Virus record (IMG/VR): IMGVR_UViG_3300025446_000037
Coordinates: 1-25,988 of that record
Reading direction: 5' to 3' (one strand)
Source: a virus
Length of the DNA: 25,988 nucleotides
Shown here: in pieces, positions 1-24,211 of the stretch
Layout: every line of letters begins with the position of its first letter
Position numbering within the stretch: the first letter of the stretch is position 1
Position numbers and translations under genes: made by a program
The notes under the pieces: generated by a model
Databases searched by the model: none
Told to the model about the DNA's origin: nothing
Seen by the model: the letters and a program-made list of their open reading frames with translations, nothing else

Positions 1-772
1 CACTACCGGTTGCCCCTGTAGGGCCAGTGGCACCTGTAGCTCCTGAGCCCGAACCACCACCACCACCACTAGGACCAGTGGCGCCTGTGGCACCAATAGT
101 TCCGGCACCGCTAGCACCAGTAGCGCCAATAGTTCCGGCACCGCTAGCACCAGTAGCACCAGCTGTACCAGGCGTGCCCGAAGCTCCTGGCGTACCTGAT
201 GCACCTTGTGCACCTGTTGCTCCTGTAGCGCCGGCACCACCTCCACCGCCAGAAGGATAAAGCAAACCATCTCGCTGATTAGCTTCAAACTTTATGTTCC
301 CAAAATCGTCAAAGATTTGAATGCCAAAGAGCGGACGTGCAGGACTAACCCAATGCGGAGACTCGACACCGCTAGCACCGGTTGAAAAGGGCGGATCTTC
401 AGTAGGCAGGTTATTGGGCAGTTGCCCAATAATCATTACCGTTTGATCCTGAGATGAAGGGCCAGCCGAACCAGAGGCACCTATAACGCCGCTAGCACCA
501 GTTGCACCAGTAGCGCCCATAGGGCCGGTAGCGCCGGTTGCACCAGTTGCGCCACCATCTACACCAGAGGCGCCAATGCCGCCTTCAGCACCAGTACCGC
601 CTAACGCACCAGTTCCGCCAGGGCCACCAAGACCACCGAGCCCACCCGGATCGCCATAGCCACCTGCTGAGCCAGTAGCGCCAGTTGCGCCGGTTGCGCC
701 GGTAGCTCCAGTTGCGCCTTGAGCACCAGTTGCACCTGTGGCACCTGTAGCTCCTGTTAAAATAACGGGCAT
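1..772 (-). CDS. Collagen-like tail fibre protein (C-terminus cut by window edge)
   Basis: The reading frame is open from an ATG at 772 to the window edge, about 257 codons. Residues about 6-110 are Gly-X-Y triplets, mostly Gly-Ala-Thr. A non-collagen segment of about 65 residues follows (roughly 111-175, containing W, F, D and N residues and no triplets). A second Gly-X-Y domain with Gly-rich runs then continues to the edge. Gly-X-Y domains form collagen triple helices and are common in phage tail fibres, where they give long stiff trimeric stalks; that role is inferred here. The position after the tail-tip genes fits a receptor-binding or side fibre. The start follows GGGAG with a 6-nt spacer and overlaps the stop of a tiny upstream cistron (TAATG). 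The receptor-binding C-terminus is probably outside the window. Confidence 0.88.
   Translation of the reverse strand, partial: MPVILTGATGATGATGAQGATGATGATGATGATGSAGGYGDPGGLGGLGGPGGTGALGGTGAEGGIGASGVDGGATGATGATGPMGATGATGASGVIGASGSAGPSSQDQTVMIIGQLPNNLPTEDPPFSTGASGVESPHWVSPARPLFGIQIFDDFGNIKFEANQRDGLLYPSGGGGGAGATGATGAQGASGTPGASGTPGTAGATGASGAGTIGATGASGAGTIGATGATGPSGGGGGSGSGATGATGPTGATGS
93..158 (-). repeat. Two tandem 33-nt units inside the collagen-like gene
   Basis: Two adjacent 33-nt units (93-125 and 126-158) differ at one base. Each encodes the same 11-residue stretch made of Gly-Ala-Ser, Gly-Ala-Gly and Thr-Ile-Gly elements. This shows directly that the collagen domain can grow or shrink by in-frame slippage or unequal recombination. 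Confidence 0.9.
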
Positions 773-7400: not shown

Positions 7401-7605
7401 TGCTGCCCATATTACCTATCTTGGTAAAAAGTCCACCAATCCCTTTAGTACCATCCTCGAATCCCTTAGACAGCTTAAGACCCATACTGGTGCCAGTAGT
7501 ACCCATGGTGTTACTAAGCTCATCACCTATGGCTTTAGTCTTGAGAGCGCCTGCCTCAAAATCTGTCGTGTTCATAAGCATGTAGACAGTTATATGCGCA
7601 GTCAT
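4459..7605 (-). CDS. Tail tape measure protein
   Basis: This 1048-residue protein sits just after the chaperone and gp10-like genes and just before the Dit-like gene. Residues about 125-320 have the alpha-helical, Ala-rich tape-measure core, including an 'ALSNLTMATGSS' segment. Hydrophobic stretches lie near 105-120, 344-396 and 497-523 and could act as membrane-inserting segments during DNA ejection. The C-terminal third is Gln/Ala-rich and probably coiled coil. Using the usual rule of about 0.15 nm per residue, it predicts a tail of roughly 155 nm. The start overlaps the preceding stop (TAATG), suggesting coupled translation. I saw no peptidase or transglycosylase motif. Confidence 0.93.
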   Translation of the reverse strand: MTAHITVYMLMNTTDFEAGALKTKAIGDELSNTMGTTGTSMGLKLSKGFEDGTKGIGGLFTKIGNMGSSMGIPLSGAFTKIGVSIQGADTKAATFTATMEGIGKISLFAGLAAGAAVALEGVKVWDAQEKAVVALDTVVKNTGGNLGVFDKQFAAVTASAKLFTKTDVADALSNLTMATGSSTKALSMMTTVEGMAVYKHESLAVASDQLDHILGGSTRTLLSWGINLNVSSGRLHSVQMEEEALQKAELNLQNVQQQHAAGYLEGVQYLDKYRTASLAVSDAQSNLSNAETTTSRVLNLLSNRFKGAQEALGSTFAGQIQEARSQLTNFAGSIGGVVVKGIEKFEIVIAGVVNFLMKFKAVAIALGAVIFGVPVAGAFMYLGSVIVKLISYVLTCGNTFNTFGIKARASASGPQAMAVALQELQKSMVQTGTETPEVNEALAQTGTAAQQAAVQVQGLQLSFEEAGEQAQGQMFAIDAFATALDPELVEAAETAKLAVSGIFAASVIGGLMAVVTVVGYIVNALRSARAAALQLATTVGPGASLNSAFTSFYQQGNVMGMSNIYAQQKQALAGMNAGGVQYSWQTMPLSEYEAKYKGARTRGEKTVPIGPDLTPETTIEVWLGKVTAASRGYVAQLKVVQNEEAELNRIRGMSAKQLAAFIRQEQINEGIVPYTSPAAPKIPGVSNPPGSIGYKTSPLIAAYQSMEQAMQQALQTGTIQSLAPQMQGGIGHGGGGPTLTMPEALVAKSSSAGFNKLNEELKTLWDNGLKQQARQLLATYNAELQYYGALEANQQRIALADEIQQQAQALTDQTTIISDMATAVVSKITDTTAVMSAQNQKAVDISNDQTQITVDKLGERGLYGLNLVTQELRVNLDQITLKWTTAADNQAIVVAQTAKRGNEAVNNAKINEAKVAAKWEPVVAAAQKREDIMVAGGTSLQQAAAQSGLKVAQAQESKAEAIAAKAYTQQQDIANRHNALAQQTLTAIQNQGKIAEQKATNLVNIEQAKANTQFAGSGVHIEITGVNPTDSNAIASATSWAMRTKVPK

Positions 7606-8048
7606 TATGCAGCTTCCTCGGAGTCAAACATCTCTTGCAGTGCCGCTCCCATTAGTAACTCAGCATCTTGCACAACCTCACGAGCAGCCTCCTCGATAAA
7701 AGGATATGTAGGCTGCGATGGCGTGTTGGCAGTACCAGTCCAGTTCCATTGCTTACGTGGAATATTTGGACTAGCAAAAATGGGATGGTTAAAGGTACGG
7801 TTTACTTCGCCACCATCATAAGCAGCCGTAGCACCGTCCGCTCTTATAATCGGCCCTAAAGCTACCAGATCCCATTTAATGGTCGATGGATTCATGTTAT
7901 GTGGCGCCCGAGCACGAGCGAGCAAAGCAGCATCTCTCGCCATGTCCCGAAGAACACGACGAGTTACCCTCTTAGCATCTGCCGTCACTCTAGCCATATA
8001 ACCGTTAAAGGCCCGAGTATCGACCTTTATCGAAGCACTACCATTCAC
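7605..8048 (-). CDS. HK97 gp10-like protein (neck or tail-completion type)
   Basis: This 147-residue protein starts at a GTG (8048), one base after the stop of the frameshifted chaperone frame. The basic, Arg/Ala-rich helix at about 20-48 followed by 'ARAPHN', a Gly-rich beta segment and 'FNHPIFASPN' near residue 90, then 'YPFIEEAAREVV', resembles the HK97 gp10-like family, which usually acts at the neck between connector and tail terminator. Its place between the tail assembly chaperone and the tape measure is unusual for that family, so a tail-specific role is possible. Its stop overlaps the tape measure ATG. The family match is by pattern recall, not search. Confidence 0.55.
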   Translation of the reverse strand: MNGSASIKVDTRAFNGYMARVTADAKRVTRRVLRDMARDAALLARARAPHNMNPSTIKWDLVALGPIIRADGATAAYDGGEVNRTFNHPIFASPNIPRKQWNWTGTANTPSQPTYPFIEEAAREVVQDAELLMGAALQEMFDSEEAA

Positions 8049-8049
8049 G

Positions 8050-8262
8050 CTATGCTAAACCTTTCACCCCGCACAAGGCAGGGAAGATTGTATCAAAATA
8101 AACATTCTCTATCCAGTAGACCCATCCGATGTACTCAAGGAAGGGTCGTCGTTCGGCTTCCTCTGGACCGATGCCAAGGGCAAAGGAGACATAAGGCTGC
8201 CAACTGAGCCAGAGTTCGTCTGGATTCCCTCCGAGGAGCTTATTCCATCGGAGGGCAAAGGA
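8050..8262 (-). CDS. Tail assembly chaperone frameshift extension (T-like, -1 frame)
   Basis: In the -1 frame, an uninterrupted 70-codon extension begins at the slippery site and ends at the TAG at 8050-8052, one base before the next gene. It reads like real protein: 'ALRWNKLLGGNPDELWLSW', then 'FALGIGPEEAERRP', then a Trp/Tyr-rich helix. The zero frame over the same DNA is low-complexity. Fusing residues 1-215 of the upstream frame to these 70 gives a 285-residue G-T type protein. The segment has no credible start of its own, so it depends on frameshifting. The extension is expected to carry the tape-measure contact, as in lambda gpGT. Confidence 0.88.
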   Translation of the reverse strand, partial: SFALRWNKLLGGNPDELWLSWQPYVSFALGIGPEEAERRPFLEYIGWVYWIENVYFDTIFPALCGVKGLA

Positions 8263-8906
8263 GGGTTTACTGCCTCAGGTTCCTCCTGATCGGGTAACTG
8301 AATCTCAGGTGCCTCTGGCATTACCGGCTCCTCAGGCTCATCATAATCAAACGAGTCCAATAGACCACCAGCGGCAAGATCAATCTGGTTAGGCATAGGC
8401 ACAGACTTATCATTAGGGCCGCCCCAACAGATCCACGCTATACACGCCAAGGCGTCTGGATCACCACGAAACATACCAACCGTAAATCGGACTAACGAGC
8501 CCAATGATGGATACCATCTCTTGATTTGTTTCAGTACTTTGTGAGTAAGATTCTTTTCAAGATCAAAGGTGTACTCCTCACCATTTAACGTTAAACGAAT
8601 AGGCTGTACCTTATCAACTGCATGCACCCCATCAATAGACACAAAAGAGCCCATCACTTCACCGATTGAGAAGTCGGGGAAGCTAATGGGCTCTCGCACT
8701 TTCTTTACCCCAGCTTTTCGCTGGGCTATCCATATAAGGCACGCCAAAGCATCCGGGTCACCCAAAGATGCCGCAGTGACAAACGCCTGATAGTCCCCTA
8801 AGTCAGAGAACCAAGATTTGATGTGTCGTAGTTCAGAGATGCCAATGTCTCGCTCAGGTGAGAAGCTGTACTCCTCGCCATTATAGGTAAAGGTGGACTC
8901 GGGCAT
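8109..8906 (-). CDS. Tail assembly chaperone, unshifted product (G-like)
   Basis: This 265-residue protein lies between the tail tube gene and the tape measure, the standard place for the tail assembly chaperone. It has an internal duplication: residues about 5-66 and 104-163 share 'LNGEEYTF'-type strands, a charged helix ending in Trp, and the block GDPDALAC followed by I/L-W-I. The tail after residue about 185 is acidic and Pro-rich. After codon 215 (the frameshift site) the zero frame runs 50 more residues of low-complexity Ser/Pro/Gly sequence. The start has AAAGGA six bases upstream. The unshifted and shifted products are expected to bind the tape measure and recruit tube subunits, then leave the finished tail. 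Confidence 0.85.
   Translation of the reverse strand: MPESTFTYNGEEYSFSPERDIGISELRHIKSWFSDLGDYQAFVTAASLGDPDALACLIWIAQRKAGVKKVREPISFPDFSIGEVMGSFVSIDGVHAVDKVQPIRLTLNGEEYTFDLEKNLTHKVLKQIKRWYPSLGSLVRFTVGMFRGDPDALACIAWICWGGPNDKSVPMPNQIDLAAGGLLDSFDYDEPEEPVMPEAPEIQLPDQEEPEAVNPPLPSDGISSSEGIQTNSGSVGSLMSPLPLASVQRKPNDDPSLSTSDGSTG
8227..8268 (-). promoter_or_regulatory. Programmed -1 ribosomal frameshift signal
   Basis: The heptamer A-AAC-CCT (8268 to 8262) is in the correct X-XXY-YYZ phase in the zero frame. It allows both tRNAs to re-pair as AAA and CCC. Six bases later a perfect 8-bp stem forms between CCCTCCGA (8255-8248) and TCGGAGGG (8234-8227). A 3-bp inner helix (GGA/TCC) with one bulged T leaves a 6-nt loop. 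Slippery heptamer, short spacer and stem-loop are the three classical parts of a -1 frameshift element. Confidence 0.87.
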
Positions 8907-8946: not shown

Positions 8947-10095
8947 TTAATACGTAGTGTCCTTGGTTGTGAGTGAGAAACTAGGGCTATTACCAGAGGC
9001 GTCAACAACACCCTTGAGGTTAATCGTGTTCTTCACGATATCCAAACCTTCGAGCGGAGCCTCACCACCAGACTGAATGATGAGCTGTGGGAAGTTCAAC
9101 TGGAACGTGTCATTAAACCCGGACGTAGCAATCTCTCCGGTGACCGCCTTAATAACCGTTGTGCCCAATGGAGTAAAGTATGGGTACTGAAATGTATAAG
9201 CACCAGAAGCACCAGAAGCACCAGACCGAGCACCAATAAATAGGTCAAAGATATCGGACTTGGCTGTAGGTGTGTAGTCCATATCGAGCGCAACAGCAAC
9301 CTCGATCAGGCCATTAGTGACGGGCTCCTCTTTGTACTCATTACCGACATAAGCACGATCTACTGCTAGTTTTGGCGTCAGGGTAACAGTAATCTTACGG
9401 CACCCATCGACCGACTCCCCGCCCACTGTAAATAGGCTTGAACTGTTCGGCATCGTAAAGGGAACGAATCCAACAGGCTCAGTCGTGCCCGCCTTAAGAG
9501 CCGGAGTGTCCGTCAACACAACAAATGCAAAGTCCCAATCATAGGAGAACGTCACAACGTTGTCACGAGGAAACACCCATTCAGCCTTGGTAATCTTACC
9601 GTTTACATAGTCCTCAAAGTGAAGATTACCGGCAGTATCAGGAACGCCAAGTTCAGCGTCAATCCACGAACCATCCTGCACATACAAACCATTAAAGGAA
9701 CCACTAGCGGCACCCGTAGCGTTCTGTGCAATATATGCCGCCGATCCCGACGCCGCCTGCACCAATGCAGTAGGCGTAGGAAGGGCAAGCCCACCAAAGG
9801 CCTGCGCCAACATGAGCGCCATATGCGTATTGATGAAGTCACCAGTCATAGTCATCTGAGCGTCCAGATAGACAGCAACGTTGGCTGATCCAACATCAAT
9901 GACACCACTGCCTTGTAGATAACGAATGTACGGGCCACCCTGTACCTTGTGAGGATTGTACGTGCCCTTAGCTGTCTTGACCGGCACCATAGTATCCGGT
10001 GCCTGGTAGTCAACTATAGCAGCATAATCATTTACCGTGTTTATACCCTCAGCGATGGCGGCGTACCCACCGAGACCTGAACCTATTCCGCCCAT
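8947..10095 (-). CDS. Major tail (tube) protein
   Basis: This protein of about 382 residues precedes the frameshifting chaperone, the usual position of the tail tube subunit. It is beta-rich with alternating strand segments and lacks Cys-rich or catalytic motifs, as expected for a tube protein. It is longer than simple tube proteins, leaving room for a surface domain. Residues about 292-300 are SGASGASGA, encoded by tandem 9-nt repeats, and GATGAASGS occurs near 127-134. These Gly-Ala-Ser motifs may be surface linkers or sugar acceptor sites. Two adjacent ATGs (10098 and 10095) are possible. The second has AAGGAG six bases upstream and overlaps the HNH stop (TGATG), so I prefer it. Confidence 0.85.
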   Translation of the reverse strand: MGGIGSGLGGYAAIAEGINTVNDYAAIVDYQAPDTMVPVKTAKGTYNPHKVQGGPYIRYLQGSGVIDVGSANVAVYLDAQMTMTGDFINTHMALMLAQAFGGLALPTPTALVQAASGSAAYIAQNATGAASGSFNGLYVQDGSWIDAELGVPDTAGNLHFEDYVNGKITKAEWVFPRDNVVTFSYDWDFAFVVLTDTPALKAGTTEPVGFVPFTMPNSSSLFTVGGESVDGCRKITVTLTPKLAVDRAYVGNEYKEEPVTNGLIEVAVALDMDYTPTAKSDIFDLFIGARSGASGASGAYTFQYPYFTPLGTTVIKAVTGEIATSGFNDTFQLNFPQLIIQSGGEAPLEGLDIVKNTINLKGVVDASGNSPSFSLTTKDTTY

Positions 10096-10487
10096 CATGT
10101 ACTCCTTTTTCTATTCACAGTGCGGGTCCTGTGGCAGTTAGCGCACACGACATCACATTTCTCGACTTCTCTAATAATGTTTTCTAATGAATGTGTCATC
10201 ATTTGAGAAACATTAAATAACTTATCTGTTCCTGGCCTATGATCCAAATCTAAACACTCTGGTCGTCCAATAAAGTGCTCACCACAATCTTGACAGCCCA
10301 TTGTTATTTTATAAACATTAATGCAAACAACCATTGGATATCGTCGTACATATATACCTTGAGTCTCAGGATTTCTTTGGCGAGATTTCTTAGTATTCTG
10401 ATAATGCTTCTCAGGATTTTCCTTGCGCCACTTCCTAGCACGATCACGATTCTTTTGCTTAGTTATTTCAGATACTAGACGGGCCAT
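10095..10487 (-). CDS. HNH homing-type endonuclease
   Basis: This 130-residue protein has a basic N-terminal helix rich in Arg and Lys (about 8-40). A Cys4 zinc site is formed by C65/C68 and C115/C118. The HNH core is seen as 'LDLDH' (D82, H83), an Asn in the LENII helix, and 'CANCHRTRT' with H119. This is the usual small phage HNH nuclease, which cuts DNA at a target and spreads by repair of the break. It looks more AT-rich than its neighbours. It sits between the tail terminator and tail tube genes and has its own ribosome site (AAAGGA, six-base spacer). Its last codons carry the AAGGAG that serves the tail tube gene, so the insertion keeps downstream translation intact. Confidence 0.88.
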   Translation of the reverse strand: MARLVSEITKQKNRDRARKWRKENPEKHYQNTKKSRQRNPETQGIYVRRYPMVVCINVYKITMGCQDCGEHFIGRPECLDLDHRPGTDKLFNVSQMMTHSLENIIREVEKCDVVCANCHRTRTVNRKRST

Positions 10488-15654: not shown

Positions 15655-15677
15655 ACCTGCATAGATGTAATACAGGT
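15655..15677. repeat. Inverted repeat ACCTGYAT next to the protease stop codon
   Basis: ACCTGCAT (15655-15662) and ATACAGGT (15670-15677) form an inverted repeat matching at seven of eight positions around a 7-nt spacer. It begins at the last base of the protease stop codon and lies about 15 bases upstream of the promoter -35. No U-run follows, so it is more likely a protein-binding site or weak RNA hairpin than a terminator. Confidence 0.4.
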
Positions 15678-17329
15678 TACCTACTAGAGCGATGTTTTAG
15701 TAGCTCGGCCTTAGCCCTAGCCATTCGCACTCCCGCTCCATCATTGGGTAGAACTGGGTTACCATCATTCAGCTTACCAGTATCTAGACCACCATTATTG
15801 CTTGCCAATTGCTTATTAGCATCAGGCTCAGTATCTCCAAGTGTAGCTCGAATGGCTGTCTCCGCTTCAGAGATCCCAGAGCCCGCAGCCTTGACGCCAT
15901 TGGCACCCTGGCCGAGAGCATCGAGAGCGTCCTTAAGCAGTTGCTCATTGGCGCTAGAGATAGTTTTACCAGCACGTAGTTGGCTAATCACATCCATAAC
16001 CTTGAACGTTCTGGCACGAGAACAGTACATATACTGAGGTTGAGCACACATACGCTCATCCATATACTTGAGCGCCGAGATAGTGTCCTCGAACACAGGC
16101 TCAGCCGTTTGGTCAAGTTGGCGAGTATTCACGTAATCCGTGTACAAAAGACCAGCAGACCTAAAGAGCATGACGCCCTCACGGCCCAAGATGTCTTGCA
16201 CGTCTGAACGCAAGCCAACCGTGGTCAGCTTGTTGGCCGGCGACTTCACAACCGAGCAGTCAAAGAGCTGAAGCTCTAGCACAGACCGCTTAGTGTATGT
16301 CTCATCCCAGTCTTCCTTGGTTGCCCTAAATGCGAAAGACATCTTTGAGTAGTCGCCACGTTTGACGCCAGAGTACAGATTCCGACTAGACGTATTCTCT
16401 GCGATGTCGAGGCGAGCCACACTTCGCAAACCTCGGCTGTCCTCGCCAAGGTCCATAGTCTTAGGCCACGAGGACAACACATCGCCCTTATGGTCCACAA
16501 GGTACGGAATGTAGTCCGACTCCTTAAGAGTCTTAGCAAAAGCACCTGGCATAATCGTTTCGGTGTATTCGCCCATCCAGTCCATAACGTCATAGCCATT
16601 GCCAGTGGTCGAAGGCCAGCCAACTAGCTCGGCCTCGGTAGGAGCTTCACCCTCCGCTCGAACCTGGAAGTCAGCAACAATGGGCGGCTCCATCTCCCGC
16701 AACGCCCAATACTTCTTCGGTACTGCCGGGATCGGATCCTCAACAGGCTCAGACGACTTAGTTTCAATCGGCACATACGTTGTCACAACCTTGACAGCAG
16801 TTGGCTTCTTATCTAGCTTCACGTCATTTCCGTCAATGGTGTATCCCGTCTGAAACTTCTCACCATTCTGGCAAAAGACTACATTGTCATCATCAAAATC
16901 AAAGACATATGTGTAGTCATCGTCGTCCTTGCAGAACTTGTCCGATACAGCACTCGACAGCATGTCCTGAAGATCACTGTACGACTGCCCTTCACGCCAC
17001 TGCGAAGCCAAAAACTCAGCGGACTTAGCTTCGGGCTTAATGGACCCGTCTGAGTTCCAGTTCTCAGGAATCAATGTCGATTTGCCCATACCCTTTGCCC
17101 TTCCGATTATGTATTTGCGAATCTTATCGTGGTCCGCACTTCCACGTCCAACGGCCTTAATGGCCCGCTTAAGGTCTTGAAGATCATCAATGGGATAGCT
17201 ATAGTGCTCCCCATCATCGTCCTTAAGAGCATGGCCCTTAGCTCCAAGAGTGTCAACTTCAGCCTGTGTGTACTTAGCCCGCACTTGGGCCTCATACTCG
17301 GCCATACGAGCCTCATAACTATTAGGCAT
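15677..17329 (-). CDS. Prohead maturation protease with N-terminal extension
   Basis: This 550-residue protein has three parts. Residues about 20-92 match a small helical module I recall from phage and actinobacterial proteins (DUF6582-like: 'LGAKGHAL', 'YPIDDLQDLKRAIKAVGRG', 'RKYIIGRAKGMG', 'IPENW'). Residues about 117-187 form an acidic strand-rich module ('YVFDFDDDNVVF', ending 'TYVP'). Residues about 218-375 are an HK97-type prohead protease (S78): 'GWPSTTGNGYDVMD', catalytic His in 'LVDHKGD' (H280), catalytic Ser in 'KMSFAFR' (S331), then 'LFDCSVVKSPAN'. A long helical tail follows and may act as scaffold. The protease trims the capsid precursor. The ATG follows AGGAGG by eight bases and overlaps the upstream gene by 8 bp. 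Confidence 0.88.
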   Translation of the reverse strand: MPNSYEARMAEYEAQVRAKYTQAEVDTLGAKGHALKDDDGEHYSYPIDDLQDLKRAIKAVGRGSADHDKIRKYIIGRAKGMGKSTLIPENWNSDGSIKPEAKSAEFLASQWREGQSYSDLQDMLSSAVSDKFCKDDDDYTYVFDFDDDNVVFCQNGEKFQTGYTIDGNDVKLDKKPTAVKVVTTYVPIETKSSEPVEDPIPAVPKKYWALREMEPPIVADFQVRAEGEAPTEAELVGWPSTTGNGYDVMDWMGEYTETIMPGAFAKTLKESDYIPYLVDHKGDVLSSWPKTMDLGEDSRGLRSVARLDIAENTSSRNLYSGVKRGDYSKMSFAFRATKEDWDETYTKRSVLELQLFDCSVVKSPANKLTTVGLRSDVQDILGREGVMLFRSAGLLYTDYVNTRQLDQTAEPVFEDTISALKYMDERMCAQPQYMYCSRARTFKVMDVISQLRAGKTISSANEQLLKDALDALGQGANGVKAAGSGISEAETAIRATLGDTEPDANKQLASNNGGLDTGKLNDGNPVLPNDGAGVRMARAKAELLKHRSSR

Positions 17330-17555: not shown

Positions 17556-17706
17556 TAATCATCGCCTCGATTTCGTCTATCCGCTCGGGGTCTTCCTCTA
17601 TGTCGTCTAGAGGATCATGCCCGATAAGTTTTGGCGGCTCACTGCCATCCGTCCCGGCGATTATGAAAGCACCCATTGGTGTTAGAAATGGAGTAATCTT
17701 ATGCAT
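17524..17706 (-). CDS. Small acidic protein (unknown)
   Basis: This 60-residue protein has a hydrophobic N-terminal strand region ('PFLTPMGAFIIAG', 6-18) and an acidic helix ('DPLDDIEEDPERIDEIEAMI', 31-50). The start overlaps the stop of the 960-residue gene (TAATG), and the 3' end overlaps the next gene by 32 bases. It is short, but the tight coupling on both sides supports it as a gene. The function is unknown. Confidence 0.5.
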   Translation of the reverse strand: MHKITPFLTPMGAFIIAGTDGSEPPKLIGHDPLDDIEEDPERIDEIEAMINAQLSRTDQI

Positions 17707-20588
17707 TATGCGCTCCCTAGTTCGGGATGATTCTTGAGTTGCTGCTCAACCTTAGCCGGAGACAGCCCGGACTTTACAGCCAGCGCCGCAACATTTACAG
17801 CCTGCGAGTCGGCGTGCGTACCAGTCCAGTTAAACACTCGATCATATATCTGAGCTACAGCGTTATCCGTAGCACCATTGGTGAGTGAAACCTCAGTATA
17901 TGCCTCGGCATACGCCTCATGTGCATTCTGTCGTCCATACTCACTCAATGAGTTTGGTGAGTTAGCTGATTGAGTTGCAGAGAACTTATTAGCTGCCGAA
18001 AACGCTGACTTTACTTCGGCAGGAACCCGATTACCGGCTGGCGTGTTCTGCGTGGCAAACTCATTTAGGTGACCGTACTCGTGAGTTGCTACATACTGCT
18101 GAACCGATACAGTATTCCCAGCAGGCATATGCCAGCCAACATCAGTATTCACATGTTCCCGGCTAAGCACCGATGCGTTCAGGCATATCGAGTTAGGCTC
18201 AGCCGGACTAGTCCAACCTTGCAGGCCACCATATGGATCAAACCCTGTCTCTGCCGTAGTATTATCTGGCCCACGCAATGTAACCAGTGGCGGAAGGTGA
18301 GCCTCGGCAGGAGTCTTACCAGATTTAAAGCCACCATTGGTTAGAGCGTTAGTGGCTCCTACATCAGACCAGTCGAGTGGATCCCGCTCATGAAGATCGG
18401 CAACAGTGCTAAGGACGGTATTTATGTCTTCCTTTGTCGGGAGTGACATGCCGTACTTTTCCATCGGTCCCTGTGCGATATGCCCGGTGGCCCCGAGGTC
18501 ACCGTTATGATCCATAAGGTCTTGCATCTCGAAATCTGGCAGTGCGAATGCCACAGTCCCGTCATTACATTTGACCCCATAGATGGATGTAACGCCGCCA
18601 AAGTTAATGCCCGGATACTGCTTAGCAAGTGCGGTAGCTGCGGCCTTTTGCGATAGGAGCGGTCGCTGCTCGACGGCATTAGGGAACATAGGGATACTAG
18701 TCGAAGATACAGCCGGAAGATCAGCAGCCGTAAGGGCATTAACCGGGTTATTACCGGCTGACGGCGTGACGCCCTTGCTTTCGGAGCGAGTAGCGTGCCA
18801 GCCAATACTTTGCACTTCGATATTATTCAGGCTGTACCCAGTATCCTGATTTATCTGGTCCGTCGAGGCGTTAATGGCGTCCACGCAAAGCGCATAGCAG
18901 CCGCCCCCATAACCCTCGGCGCCGGACACAGGCGCTCGCATAATGACCTTATAAGTCTCAGAGTTCTTTTTCTCAGTGTCACTAATCTTTGCGTTGTATT
19001 CGCCGGTTCCCTTAAGAGCGCCGACTTCCCAGCCGTCGATTGTGACAGACTGAGTGTCATTAGGATTGATGATGTTATTGAAAAAGTCTCGCTCTTTCAT
19101 AGCACCGCCAGCGCCCAGTGTATTATCAGGAGTAGCCGCCTCCGCAGGATCCTCGTAGCGGAATCCGGACGCTATATCAATAGCCTTACCGATGCCTGAC
19201 GTACCGGAGTTAAGTCCAACTCCTGGCATAGAACCATCAATATTTGGCTCGCCCCACTTAGGATCTTCCTTGATTCCGTTCGCCTTCATATAGGCGAGCA
19301 CAGCCGCCGCAGCATCATCTCGTGTAGGCTGCTCCATTATCGGCGTATCGTTTTGAATATTGAATGGATTACCGGGAGTACCGTCATCCTTTGGTCGAGA
19401 AATACCCGAGTTGTAGTCCTTAAGCCACTGAGGATCAAAATGCATGACCATGTTAGTTGCGACAGCCTGACAGACAAATCTTGCGCCGGTCATGTTCGAG
19501 CCGATGACGGTGTTCGGAGAAAGCGCAGCGATCGCACCAGCAGCCTGATATGGCGTAACGATGCCATTAGTTGTCTTGGCTATATCACGAGCCTCAGCGT
19601 TGGCCCGAGGATAGAAGGCGATCCCGTTCGAGAAGTCCCTAGCAGATGCCCGCTCAACAAGGGCGGTGCTATTATCGGCCATTGTCTGCTGATCCGGCAT
19701 CTGCGCCTCGGCCATACGATCCTCGGCCTTATCCCGCCACTCTTGCGATAGCCCCGCCGAGTCAGCAATCTGCCTACCACCAATAGAGGGCGCAATCCTA
19801 GCCTCACCGTTAGGACCAGTGATAGGCTGGCAGCCCTCTTTGGTCATTGGGTTAACTACGCCGAAGTCTCCGGTTCCAAAGGAAAAATGCAAAGGATCCG
19901 GCAGGGTGTCCTTTTGACCCGGAGCGGGCGGCACATATATCTTGCCATCCGGCGTAGTTCCAGTAGACCTAACTTGGTCATTCTGTGCAGCTTGAGCATT
20001 ATCCCAGTAAGAGTTTTGGTTCCGATCCGCAGCAGCTTTAGCAGCAACTTGAGGATTAGCTATTTGTTGAGAAACCTCGATTTCATAGCGCCCATCATCT
20101 CCGAGCCAACCACCCAAATGCATGTCGGAACGATCCAGCAATGCCTTATTATCATTGACATACTTCTCAACGGCAGCAGCAGTATCCGGGCTATTAGGAT
20201 CCACGAATAACGGAGCAGTTACTCCACCAACTTGGAACCCTGTGGTAGGACTTGACCCGTCTTTAGTCGAGATCGTAAACCCGCCAGGATTAGCATTAAG
20301 GAAGGCCATCGTGGCATCTGCCGCTGACTGCTGCTGATTATCAGAACTAGAGTCGCCGCCATCACCACCGGCACTAGGTCGCTTACCTGACTCCCACCAT
20401 CCGTGATAACCGTGCCCTTGCTCCTCTTTCTGAAACTCCTCCTCAGGATTAATGCGCTCCTCCACTTGCCATGGCGGAACAATCTTCACTGATGGCTCTA
20501 TATTCACCCGAGTAGTAAATATCTCCGATTCGTGAATATAGGGCTCGAAGTCGCCTCTAGCCTCGACGGTCCAAGGTAGCGACATCAT
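17706..20588 (-). CDS. Large multidomain protein after the portal, with C-terminal zinc-metallopeptidase motif
   Basis: This 960-residue protein starts right after the portal stop; ATGs at 20588 and 20585 are both possible. Residues 57-69 carry a 'GHGYHGWWESGKR' motif, followed by a Gly/Ser/Gln linker. About 155-197 is a two-strand-plus-helix module ('HLGGWLGDDGRYEIEVS', ending 'RNQNSYWD') that I recall from phage minor head and toxin-like proteins. About 320-603 resembles a phage domain family I recall as DUF7178 and compare with HhH DNA glycosylases: 'FYPRANAEA', 'AAGAIAALSP', 'GIGKAIDIASG', 'VTIDGWEVGAL', 'QSIGWHATR'. At 836-840 is HEYGH, with 'NAHEAYAEAYTE' 50-55 residues later offering a third Glu ligand, a gluzincin-like zinc site. 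Most likely it is a virion protein placed near the portal and possibly injected. No MuF core was recognised. Confidence 0.72.
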   Translation of the reverse strand: MMSLPWTVEARGDFEPYIHESEIFTTRVNIEPSVKIVPPWQVEERINPEEEFQKEEQGHGYHGWWESGKRPSAGGDGGDSSSDNQQQSAADATMAFLNANPGGFTISTKDGSSPTTGFQVGGVTAPLFVDPNSPDTAAAVEKYVNDNKALLDRSDMHLGGWLGDDGRYEIEVSQQIANPQVAAKAAADRNQNSYWDNAQAAQNDQVRSTGTTPDGKIYVPPAPGQKDTLPDPLHFSFGTGDFGVVNPMTKEGCQPITGPNGEARIAPSIGGRQIADSAGLSQEWRDKAEDRMAEAQMPDQQTMADNSTALVERASARDFSNGIAFYPRANAEARDIAKTTNGIVTPYQAAGAIAALSPNTVIGSNMTGARFVCQAVATNMVMHFDPQWLKDYNSGISRPKDDGTPGNPFNIQNDTPIMEQPTRDDAAAAVLAYMKANGIKEDPKWGEPNIDGSMPGVGLNSGTSGIGKAIDIASGFRYEDPAEAATPDNTLGAGGAMKERDFFNNIINPNDTQSVTIDGWEVGALKGTGEYNAKISDTEKKNSETYKVIMRAPVSGAEGYGGGCYALCVDAINASTDQINQDTGYSLNNIEVQSIGWHATRSESKGVTPSAGNNPVNALTAADLPAVSSTSIPMFPNAVEQRPLLSQKAAATALAKQYPGINFGGVTSIYGVKCNDGTVAFALPDFEMQDLMDHNGDLGATGHIAQGPMEKYGMSLPTKEDINTVLSTVADLHERDPLDWSDVGATNALTNGGFKSGKTPAEAHLPPLVTLRGPDNTTAETGFDPYGGLQGWTSPAEPNSICLNASVLSREHVNTDVGWHMPAGNTVSVQQYVATHEYGHLNEFATQNTPAGNRVPAEVKSAFSAANKFSATQSANSPNSLSEYGRQNAHEAYAEAYTEVSLTNGATDNAVAQIYDRVFNWTGTHADSQAVNVAALAVKSGLSPAKVEQQLKNHPELGSA

Positions 20589-22300: not shown

Positions 22301-23068
22301 CTACTGATAGAGATTGATTCCTCGGTCACGTAACTCTTGTTCCTTAACATGGGCTAGCCTCAAGGGTGCATCACATGCCGGGTTTGACGCTCGGGCCATA
22401 CCGATTGGCTCATCACCAAGAATATGAACAGCGTCCACATACTTGCGCAATAGATCCATGCGCCCACACAGCTCAAACCAAGGTGAGCCACGCCAATATG
22501 GCTTAAGCACTGAGTTGTCTATTGACTGTATCTCACCATGTAATGTCCAATAGTACGGGTCAGTGCTATAGAGCGGAACCTCCCAAAACACATGCTTGCC
22601 AAAGCCCACAGTACAGTTGGTCAAATAGGGCTCAACATTACATACACCATCCCCTAGTCGACACGGAATCTTACAGACTGTGGCACGATCAGGAGTCAAG
22701 TTAAGCTCATTCAACTCGGCAATCAGCTCCGGCGTGGCTGCCATGTCGGCATCCCACTTCATTGTCCAACTGTATGTAGCCTGTGCAAAGCAGTAGTTGT
22801 AGTAGGTCATGATCGAATGCGGATCATCTTTAGGTGTGATAAGTGTCTCATATCCAGCCCGAGATACTTCGGTGTCCCAGTGAAGTATGCGAATCGGAGA
22901 AGTATTAGCCAACTCGTCCACAATCTTGTAGCTGTCGTCCATACATAAATGCAACACAACAACTATCTCATAAGGGACAACCAGCTTATCAAGTGATGTT
23001 ATACATTCCCTTAGAGTGGCTTCCTCGTTCCGACAACGAACTATGAATGAGATTCCGGGCGGTTTCAT
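22301..23068 (-). CDS. Family 2-like glycosyltransferase (GT-A)
   Basis: I set the start at the ATG at 23068, which overlaps the previous stop (TAATG) and has GAGGGGG five bases upstream. This gives 255 residues, not the 274 from an upstream GTG. The N-terminus 'ISFIVRCRNEE' and the following 'SLDKLVVPYEIVVVLH' are the nucleotide-sugar-binding strand pattern of GT2 enzymes. 'KWDADM' (D106, D108) is the DXD metal-binding motif. The C-terminal half has an aromatic-rich acceptor region and no membrane helix, so the enzyme should be cytosolic. Sugar and acceptor are unknown. Grouping with two GT32-like genes in the head operon suggests it builds or extends a glycan on virion proteins. Confidence 0.85.
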   Translation of the reverse strand: MKPPGISFIVRCRNEEATLRECITSLDKLVVPYEIVVVLHLCMDDSYKIVDELANTSPIRILHWDTEVSRAGYETLITPKDDPHSIMTYYNYCFAQATYSWTMKWDADMAATPELIAELNELNLTPDRATVCKIPCRLGDGVCNVEPYLTNCTVGFGKHVFWEVPLYSTDPYYWTLHGEIQSIDNSVLKPYWRGSPWFELCGRMDLLRKYVDAVHILGDEPIGMARASNPACDAPLRLAHVKEQELRDRGINLYQ

Positions 23069-23649
23069 TAGATCCCCCTCGGCTGACCACGCCAAGACGT
23101 TGCCCAATGATGCACACCAAAGCACATAGGATTAGTCGAGAAGTCCTCAGATTCCCGCTCAGGTTCCTTCCAATCGTAAGGGTAGAAGGACTCAGTAGGC
23201 AAGATTGCCCATGTTGAATCTTGTGATATCGCAGCATTGAATGCCCCACACCCGGCGTCCTGTACTGAACTACCTGCGTTGTCAAGACTAATGGACCACT
23301 CTAAGCACTGCTTTAGTGCCTGATTACCAGGCTCAGCGCCAAATACACCGTTCATTAAAATAGGGTGTGGGTCCCCAGTAAACCAGCCTCGATCCCGAGC
23401 GGCAAACGCCTTGTAGTTCAAGAGCGAATCCCACGGGCGCATGGGCTCGACATCCCAGTCTACATAGATACCACCGAAGTGAATAACTGCCAACAACCGC
23501 ACCTGATCCGACATGAAGATGTCGGGACACGTATAGGTGTGAAACTCCCAGTCTTGATGCAGCCATTTGAACTGTGTCCAGTACTTTTCATACTTCTCAG
23601 GTACCGGATACCCTTTAATGGTTCTATGAAAAATCTTAGGAATAGACAT
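23068..23649 (-). CDS. GT32-like (OCH1/DXD) glycosyltransferase, copy B
   Basis: I choose the ATG at 23649 because AGAGG lies seven bases upstream. The 193-residue product then aligns without gaps to copy A over its first 70 residues. It shows 'IPKIFHRT' (3-10), 'HQDWEFHTYT' (31-40) and the sugar-binding DXD in 'GGIYVDWDVEP' (D64, D66). Conserved elements follow near the C-terminus ('LPTESFYPYDW', 'GVHHWATSW'). GT32-like enzymes transfer a sugar from a nucleotide sugar onto glycans or proteins. It overlaps copy A by 14 bases and is coupled to the GT2-like gene. Donor and acceptor are unknown. Confidence 0.87.
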   Translation of the reverse strand: MSIPKIFHRTIKGYPVPEKYEKYWTQFKWLHQDWEFHTYTCPDIFMSDQVRLLAVIHFGGIYVDWDVEPMRPWDSLLNYKAFAARDRGWFTGDPHPILMNGVFGAEPGNQALKQCLEWSISLDNAGSSVQDAGCGAFNAAISQDSTWAILPTESFYPYDWKEPERESEDFSTNPMCFGVHHWATSWRGQPRGI

Positions 23650-24211
23650 AGCCATTCCTCTCTGGATCACTAAACCACGATTCAGCGGAATGATGCACAC
23701 CATACGCATCAGGAAACCCAGAAAAATCCTTTAGAACTCTATAAGGGTTTCTCCAATCCTTTAGATAAAAGGTATTAGTAGGTAACAGAGTCCAACCGGG
23801 CCAAGCAGACAGAATATCATTCACTGTGTACACACCGGCATCCATGGCCGTACCACCGTTAGCAATCCGAGTCATAGCCGTATATAAGCACAAACGTAGG
23901 GCCGGATGATTAGGTATTGCGCCAATCACAGCGTCGAGCACTATACCACCATAGTCTGGGGCTGCAAAGCCTGTATAACTTAGCAATGGTTCCCATGAGC
24001 AGAGGGGCTCGACATCCCAGTCTACATAGATACCACCACGCTCAATGAGGCCCAAAAGCCTTACTAAACCACTGTGAAGTATACCCCCACCGGTATAGGT
24101 CACAAACTCCCAGTCGGGATGCATCTCTTGAAACTTGCGCCAATAGCCTTCATATGGCTCAAGACCTGGTGTACGTACTGTTCGATGAAATATCTTGGGG
24201 ATCACGGGCAT
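23636..24211 (-). CDS. GT32-like (OCH1/DXD) glycosyltransferase, copy A
   Basis: This 191-residue protein has 'IPKIFHRT' (4-11), 'HPDWEFVTYT' (31-40), the DXD site in 'GGIYVDWDVEP' (D64, D66), 'LPTNTFYLKDW' and 'GVHHSAESW'. It is clearly paralogous to copy B downstream. It has no transmembrane segment, so it should act in the cytosol, presumably on phage proteins during assembly. It is shorter than many GT32 enzymes but keeps the core motifs. The ribosome site before the ATG is weak (AAAGG very close). It lies 29 bases after the terminase stop and leads the three-gene glycosyltransferase group. Confidence 0.87.
   Translation of the reverse strand: MPVIPKIFHRTVRTPGLEPYEGYWRKFQEMHPDWEFVTYTGGGILHSGLVRLLGLIERGGIYVDWDVEPLCSWEPLLSYTGFAAPDYGGIVLDAVIGAIPNHPALRLCLYTAMTRIANGGTAMDAGVYTVNDILSAWPGWTLLPTNTFYLKDWRNPYRVLKDFSGFPDAYGVHHSAESWFSDPERNGYVYS

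Follow-up and report, generated by a model that had tools for sequence, protein, structure and literature searches.

A conserved -1 reading frame overlapping a probable tail assembly chaperone gene of an uncultured phage is best explained by ribosomal frameshifting

We wondered if one gene of an uncultured tailed phage yields two proteins, the longer of them through a -1 ribosomal frameshift. The phage is represented by a 25,988-base virus record, analysed at its full length and called the window here; its main genes lie on the minus strand. An earlier note, made from this DNA alone, had read the gene as a 265-residue zero-frame protein with an in-phase AAACCCT at codons 214-215 and a -1 frame open for 70 codons, whose end precedes the next gene by one base. 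The ORF, the heptamer and the open frame are all present as described. Shifted reading would give a fusion of 285 residues, 215 of them shared with the zero-frame product and 70 added. Over the overlap, the zero frame was fairly called low-complexity, its tail being rich in Ser, Thr and Pro. Coordinates are collected in Table 1.

Table 1. Features of the frameshifted gene and its surroundings in the window
Feature	Position	Strand	Basis or remark
Large terminase	25869-24241	-	recognisable gene
Portal	22025-20589	-	recognisable gene
Capsid, HK97-type	14501-12912	-	recognisable gene
Probable tail tube protein, upstream of frameshifted gene	8947..10098	-	Phage_tube_2 E 0.003, below curated cut-off
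Zero-frame ORF, 265 codons + stop, G-like, product of normal decoding	8109..8906	-	relatives in L026, L022, L036, L034
Shared N-terminal part, codons 1-215	8262..8906	-	52-76% identity to window in four other lineages
Duplicated domain, first copy, residues 6-73	8688..8891	-	sequence identity; model m39bd0dab1847
Duplicated domain, second copy, residues 105-172	8391..8594	-	sequence identity; model m39bd0dab1847
AGGAGG, Shine-Dalgarno-like, 13 nt before heptamer	8282..8287	-	possible stimulator, weakly supported
Slip site A AAC CCT, codons 214-215 (GGACCCT/GGACCCC in relatives)	8262..8268	-	sequence
Spacer CCTTTG, slip site to hairpin, 6 nt	8256..8261	-	sequence
Downstream hairpin, 8 bp + bulge + 3 bp, loop ATAAGC	8227..8255	-	folding
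Small second hairpin, 5 bp, 4 of 5 pairs invariant	8209..8223	-	may only reflect coding constraint
-1 frame extension, 70 codons (SFALRW...GVKGLA) + TAG, T-like	8050..8262	-	codons 8262-8053, stop 8052-8050; conservation, selection; model m7fbee9226852
Next gene, 147 aa, GTG start at 8048	7605..8048	-	between putative chaperone and tape measure
Probable tape measure protein, 1048 aa	4459..7605	-	length and position only

In synonymous resamplings, the chance that the -1 frame would be open given the zero-frame protein was 0.0012. Homologs of this frame were looked for in related phages and found in four other lineages. Close relatives were retrieved by protein searches, and a capsid search supplied two more lineages. 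The five lineages compared are the window with L019, L026/L027, L022/L023/L029, L030/L032/L033/L036, and L034; several are represented by multiple contigs out of different metagenome data sets. In the four other lineages the -1 part is 57-74% identical to that of the window and always lies at the same -1 offset. Across lineages its stop abuts or almost abuts the start of the next gene. When viral contigs were searched with profiles built from the five-lineage alignments, the matches belonged to these lineages and none further came up. No relatives of the fusion, tube or tape measure protein were found in isolated phage genomes, and none was confirmed in bacterial genomes.

Over the same overlapping DNA, dN/dS (Nei-Gojobori, ten lineage pairs) is 0.15-0.43 for the -1 frame in all pairs, 0.73-1.83 for the zero frame and 0.83-2.22 for the third frame. 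Since dS is often about 1 or higher, these ratios are approximate, but the contrast between frames is consistent in all ten pairs. In the overlap, most substitutions affect third positions of -1-frame codons. The zero-frame tail varies in length among relatives (totals of 224, 247, 255, 264 and 265 aa), and a nonsense change shortens it in one member of the near-identical contig pair L027 and L026. The dN/dS contrast, the third-position substitutions and the variable tail ends together indicate that the -1 frame is the functional one, a real coding sequence that is conserved and under purifying selection, and that the tail in the zero frame evolves almost neutrally. The frame break itself might be false, caused by an indel in assembly or sequencing or left by a decayed fused gene, as metagenome contigs are generally known to carry such errors. 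Yet the break recurs at the same offset in all five lineages, which are divergent and in several cases represented by more than one contig, and the selection on the -1 frame speaks against a false break as well. The comparative data refute this explanation in practice, and we give it almost no credence.

As the earlier note had foreseen for plain ORF calling, the extension is absent from the ORF list, because no ATG, GTG or TTG occurs before its last ten codons; the first in the window lies at offset 830, eight codons ahead of the stop. In none of the five lineages does such a codon precede the conserved part of the -1 frame, and start codons of the ATC/ATT type all fall within conserved sequence. 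Both observations argue against a separate gene that would be expressed without frameshift, by internal initiation assisted by the AGGAGG located upstream of the slip site. We consider such a gene very unlikely. Since the -1 frame is conserved, under selection and devoid of a start of its own until near its end, a -1 frameshift yielding a G/GT-like pair is the best explanation (probability of roughly 85%), and comparison with relatives strongly supports what the earlier note proposed.

The heptamer taken alone is not unusual and means little. In-phase XXXYYYZ is found at 0.19% of codon positions in the genes of this phage (14 of 7525, approximately one per 540 codons), and about 0.1 would be expected in the overlap. 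When its conservation was checked, AAACCCT proved to be confined to the window's own lineage, which counts in part against the earlier reading. The sites read GTA AAC CCT in the window, GAG GAC CCT in L026, GTG GAC CCT in L022, ATG GAC CCC in L036 and ATG GAC CCT in L034, so that all five lineages carry (AAA/GGA)CCC(T/C) at the homologous position, with ACCC alone invariant. In L026 a -1-frame stop lies just ahead of AGA GGA CCC, the -1 frame being open from three bases before the site, and right after the site all lineages share the -1-frame residues A, R and W. This upstream stop and the invariant residues bracket the frame switch within about five codons. Judged by the aligned sequences, the shift site is real in the relatives, though relaxed and not a strict XXXYYYZ.

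A real change of frame could also be brought about by another route, such as slippage of tRNA-Pro alone on CCC T, a shift by +2 or another non-canonical event, the likeness to a heptamer in the window being coincidental. The restriction of invariance to ACCC and the fact that GGA is not XXX would fit such a route, and a single-tRNA slip would give an identical product sequence. On the other hand, AAACCCT in the window permits tandem re-pairing, other viruses are known to use G_GA as an intermediate X_XX (PMC5009743), and no homopolymer run at the site would suit transcriptional slippage; we regard a route other than the tandem -1 slip as unlikely. As GGACCC(T/C) occurs in both deeper clades, parsimony over the five lineages makes it the likelier ancestral form, and the canonical AAACCCT of the window looks derived. 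A fuller scenario would have GGACCC(T/C) as the ancestral, working -1 site of the group, converted to AAACCCT in one lineage by change of both leading Gs to A, in a chaperone with a doubled tape-measure-binding domain; we give this scenario even odds. A literature search on GGACCC as slip site yielded no relevant paper in the library searched.

We also considered AGGAGG as a Shine-Dalgarno stimulator of the dnaX kind. Tested against a synonymous null, its presence gives p=0.49 for the window alone and 0.017 jointly over five lineages. A Glu-rich linker yields AGGAGG easily, and the element is kept as a possible stimulator.

The 6-nt spacer and the perfect 8-bp stem extended by 3 inner pairs, both claimed earlier, were borne out. 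The window hairpin has a folding energy of -24.1 kcal/mol (z -4.4), and none of 2000 synonymous resamplings of the -1 frame was equally stable. A hairpin follows the site in all five lineages, strong in four and weak in L022; in the relatives its z is -3.0 (L026), -0.4 (L022), -3.0 (L036) and -2.9 (L034), and the fraction of resamplings at least as stable is 0.0015, 0.34, 0.0095 and 0.08 (marginal), respectively. In at least three lineages the structure goes beyond what coding imposes. Per-pair covariation was sought in the five hairpin sequences, and the counts do not beat shuffles; it is not demonstrable because the L036 and L034 hairpins pair one column out of register and because only five sequences are available. 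An Rfam search returned nothing above threshold.

Under the -1 frameshift explanation, the majority of ribosomes would stay in the zero frame through codons 1-265 and release the G-like protein. A minority, stalled by the hairpin located 6 nt downstream, would slip back by one base with tRNA-Asn and tRNA-Pro on AAC CCT re-pairing with AAA CCC, and would continue in the -1 frame to make the 285-residue fusion. If lambda gpG/gpGT is a guide, binding of the tape measure protein would fall to the shared part and recruitment of tail-tube subunits to the 70 added residues, and the proportion of the two products would matter for tail assembly. We infer ribosomal -1 slippage as the route, the hairpin as stimulator and a tail assembly chaperone as the product. 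Several observations count against this explanation: the exact heptamer is not shared by the relatives, GGA CCC departs from XXX YYY and re-pairs imperfectly in the P site, the hairpin is weak in L022 and marginal against the synonymous null in L034, pair-by-pair covariation was not borne out, no known chaperone family matches, and an extra gene precedes the tape measure gene.

The shared part of the protein contains an internal repeat. Residues 6-73 and 105-172 are 41% identical over 68 aa, and in the predicted structure (mean pLDDT 70) a beta-beta-alpha-alpha-alpha unit is present twice. The G part is, as sequence and model indicate, a tandem duplication of this predicted domain. The extension is modelled as four helices (mean pLDDT 77).

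Searches of Pfam, PHROG, PDB and BFVD gave no match at meaningful scores, and structure searches with the moderate-confidence models gave no significant or useful match. Among 50,697 phage records, the first-repeat consensus matched a single one, with a non-significant E of 4; this is a protein of Microbacterium phage phiMiGM15 annotated as tail assembly chaperone. Compared with the phiMiGM15 family, the repeat reached an hhalign probability of 58.7 over 28 columns, which cover the beta hairpin and the first helix, a weak similarity. The earlier designation as tail assembly chaperone follows from gene position and architecture, and family libraries give no confirmation beyond weak profile similarity; "T-like" holds as an analogy of arrangement, and no similarity to the T parts of actinophages emerged when profiles were compared. 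The gene could be frameshifted and still encode something other than a chaperone, a view compatible with the frameshift itself and in keeping with the lack of meaningful database scores and with the one gene placed before the tape measure gene. Against it stand the location downstream of the probable tube gene with a single gene between it and the tape measure gene, the combination of frameshift and helical extension, the small predicted beta-beta-helical domain and the weak profile similarity to annotated chaperones. We hold this alternative to be improbable and the gene to be a probable tail assembly chaperone, mainly from its position and architecture, by analogy.

The 147-aa gene (7605-8048, minus strand) comes after the frameshifted gene in all five lineages. 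A few other genes of the window, all on the minus strand, also stood out. Beside the tail tube gene, a 130-aa ORF (10095-10487) with a CxxC...DHR...CxxCH pattern has the look of an inserted HNH-type homing endonuclease. The interval between terminase and portal (22301-24211) holds three ORFs resembling small glycosyltransferases; mycobacteriophage Ariel, with a capsid match of 31%, also has glycosyltransferases in its head region. A 960-aa ORF located 3' of the portal gene (17706-20588) contains HEYGH (HExxH), which suggests a metallopeptidase-like domain in a head-region protein. By eye, a 550-aa ORF (15677-17329) seems to consist of an N-terminal extension joined to a part that resembles a prohead protease. 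At the edge of the window (2-772), an ORF of collagen-like GAT/GAS triplet repeats probably encodes a tail or fibre protein.

Frameshifting in phage chaperone genes is well known; what is new is a member that annotation libraries do not recognise. Less ordinary, to a modest degree and as far as the sequences tell, are the relaxed GGACCC(T/C) of the relatives, the apparent change to a canonical site in the window lineage and the doubled G domain. In this phage group, ORF callers will truncate the gene. Across the five lineages, canonical and relaxed slip sites can be compared within one gene as nature made them, and conservation provides evidence for a kind of -1 site that in phages has so far been put forward largely on the strength of annotations. 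With its doubled G domain, the putative chaperone presents a variation, open to test, on the way the tape measure is coated.

How does this gene compare with known systems? The lambda gpG/gpGT frameshift is reportedly described by Xu, Hendrix and Duda (2004). The -1 frameshift of this lambda tail assembly chaperone is summarised in PMC5009743. As in lambda G/GT, one gene would give two products through a -1 shift late in the zero-frame ORF, the -1-frame extension has no start of its own, and the gene lies between the (probable) tube and tape measure genes. Unlike in lambda, whose slip site is GGGAAAG, the G domain is doubled and not single, a strong hairpin follows the site, an extra gene precedes the tape measure gene, and no family library links the proteins.

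G_GA in the position of X_XX is documented at -1 slip sites of several eukaryotic viruses (PMC5009743). The GGACCC(T/C) of the four relatives has this in common with them, although the cited cases are eukaryotic. In phages, non-XXX motifs including "twoonefour" were proposed from annotated chaperones with the frameshift predictor PRFect (PMC10885494). GGACCCC fits the name two-one-four as given there, whereas GGACCCT is not of that form; moreover, the PRFect motif was inferred from annotations, whereas the sites described here come from conservation.

Among actinophages, Microbacterium and Arthrobacter phages phiMiGM15, Honk and Yang (PHROG 10551) have an annotated G between the major tail and tape measure genes, and in Honk and Yang G and T are annotated as a joined GT pair. 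Joined chaperones are also present in mycobacteriophages Bipper and Ariel, chosen through the capsid match. The actinophage G domain is single, about 86-90 aa long and weakly similar to the repeat found here, and the actinophage T parts have no similarity to our extension. In the actinophages examined, the chaperone adjoins the tape measure directly, with T immediately preceding it, whereas in the window the 147-aa gene separates the two.
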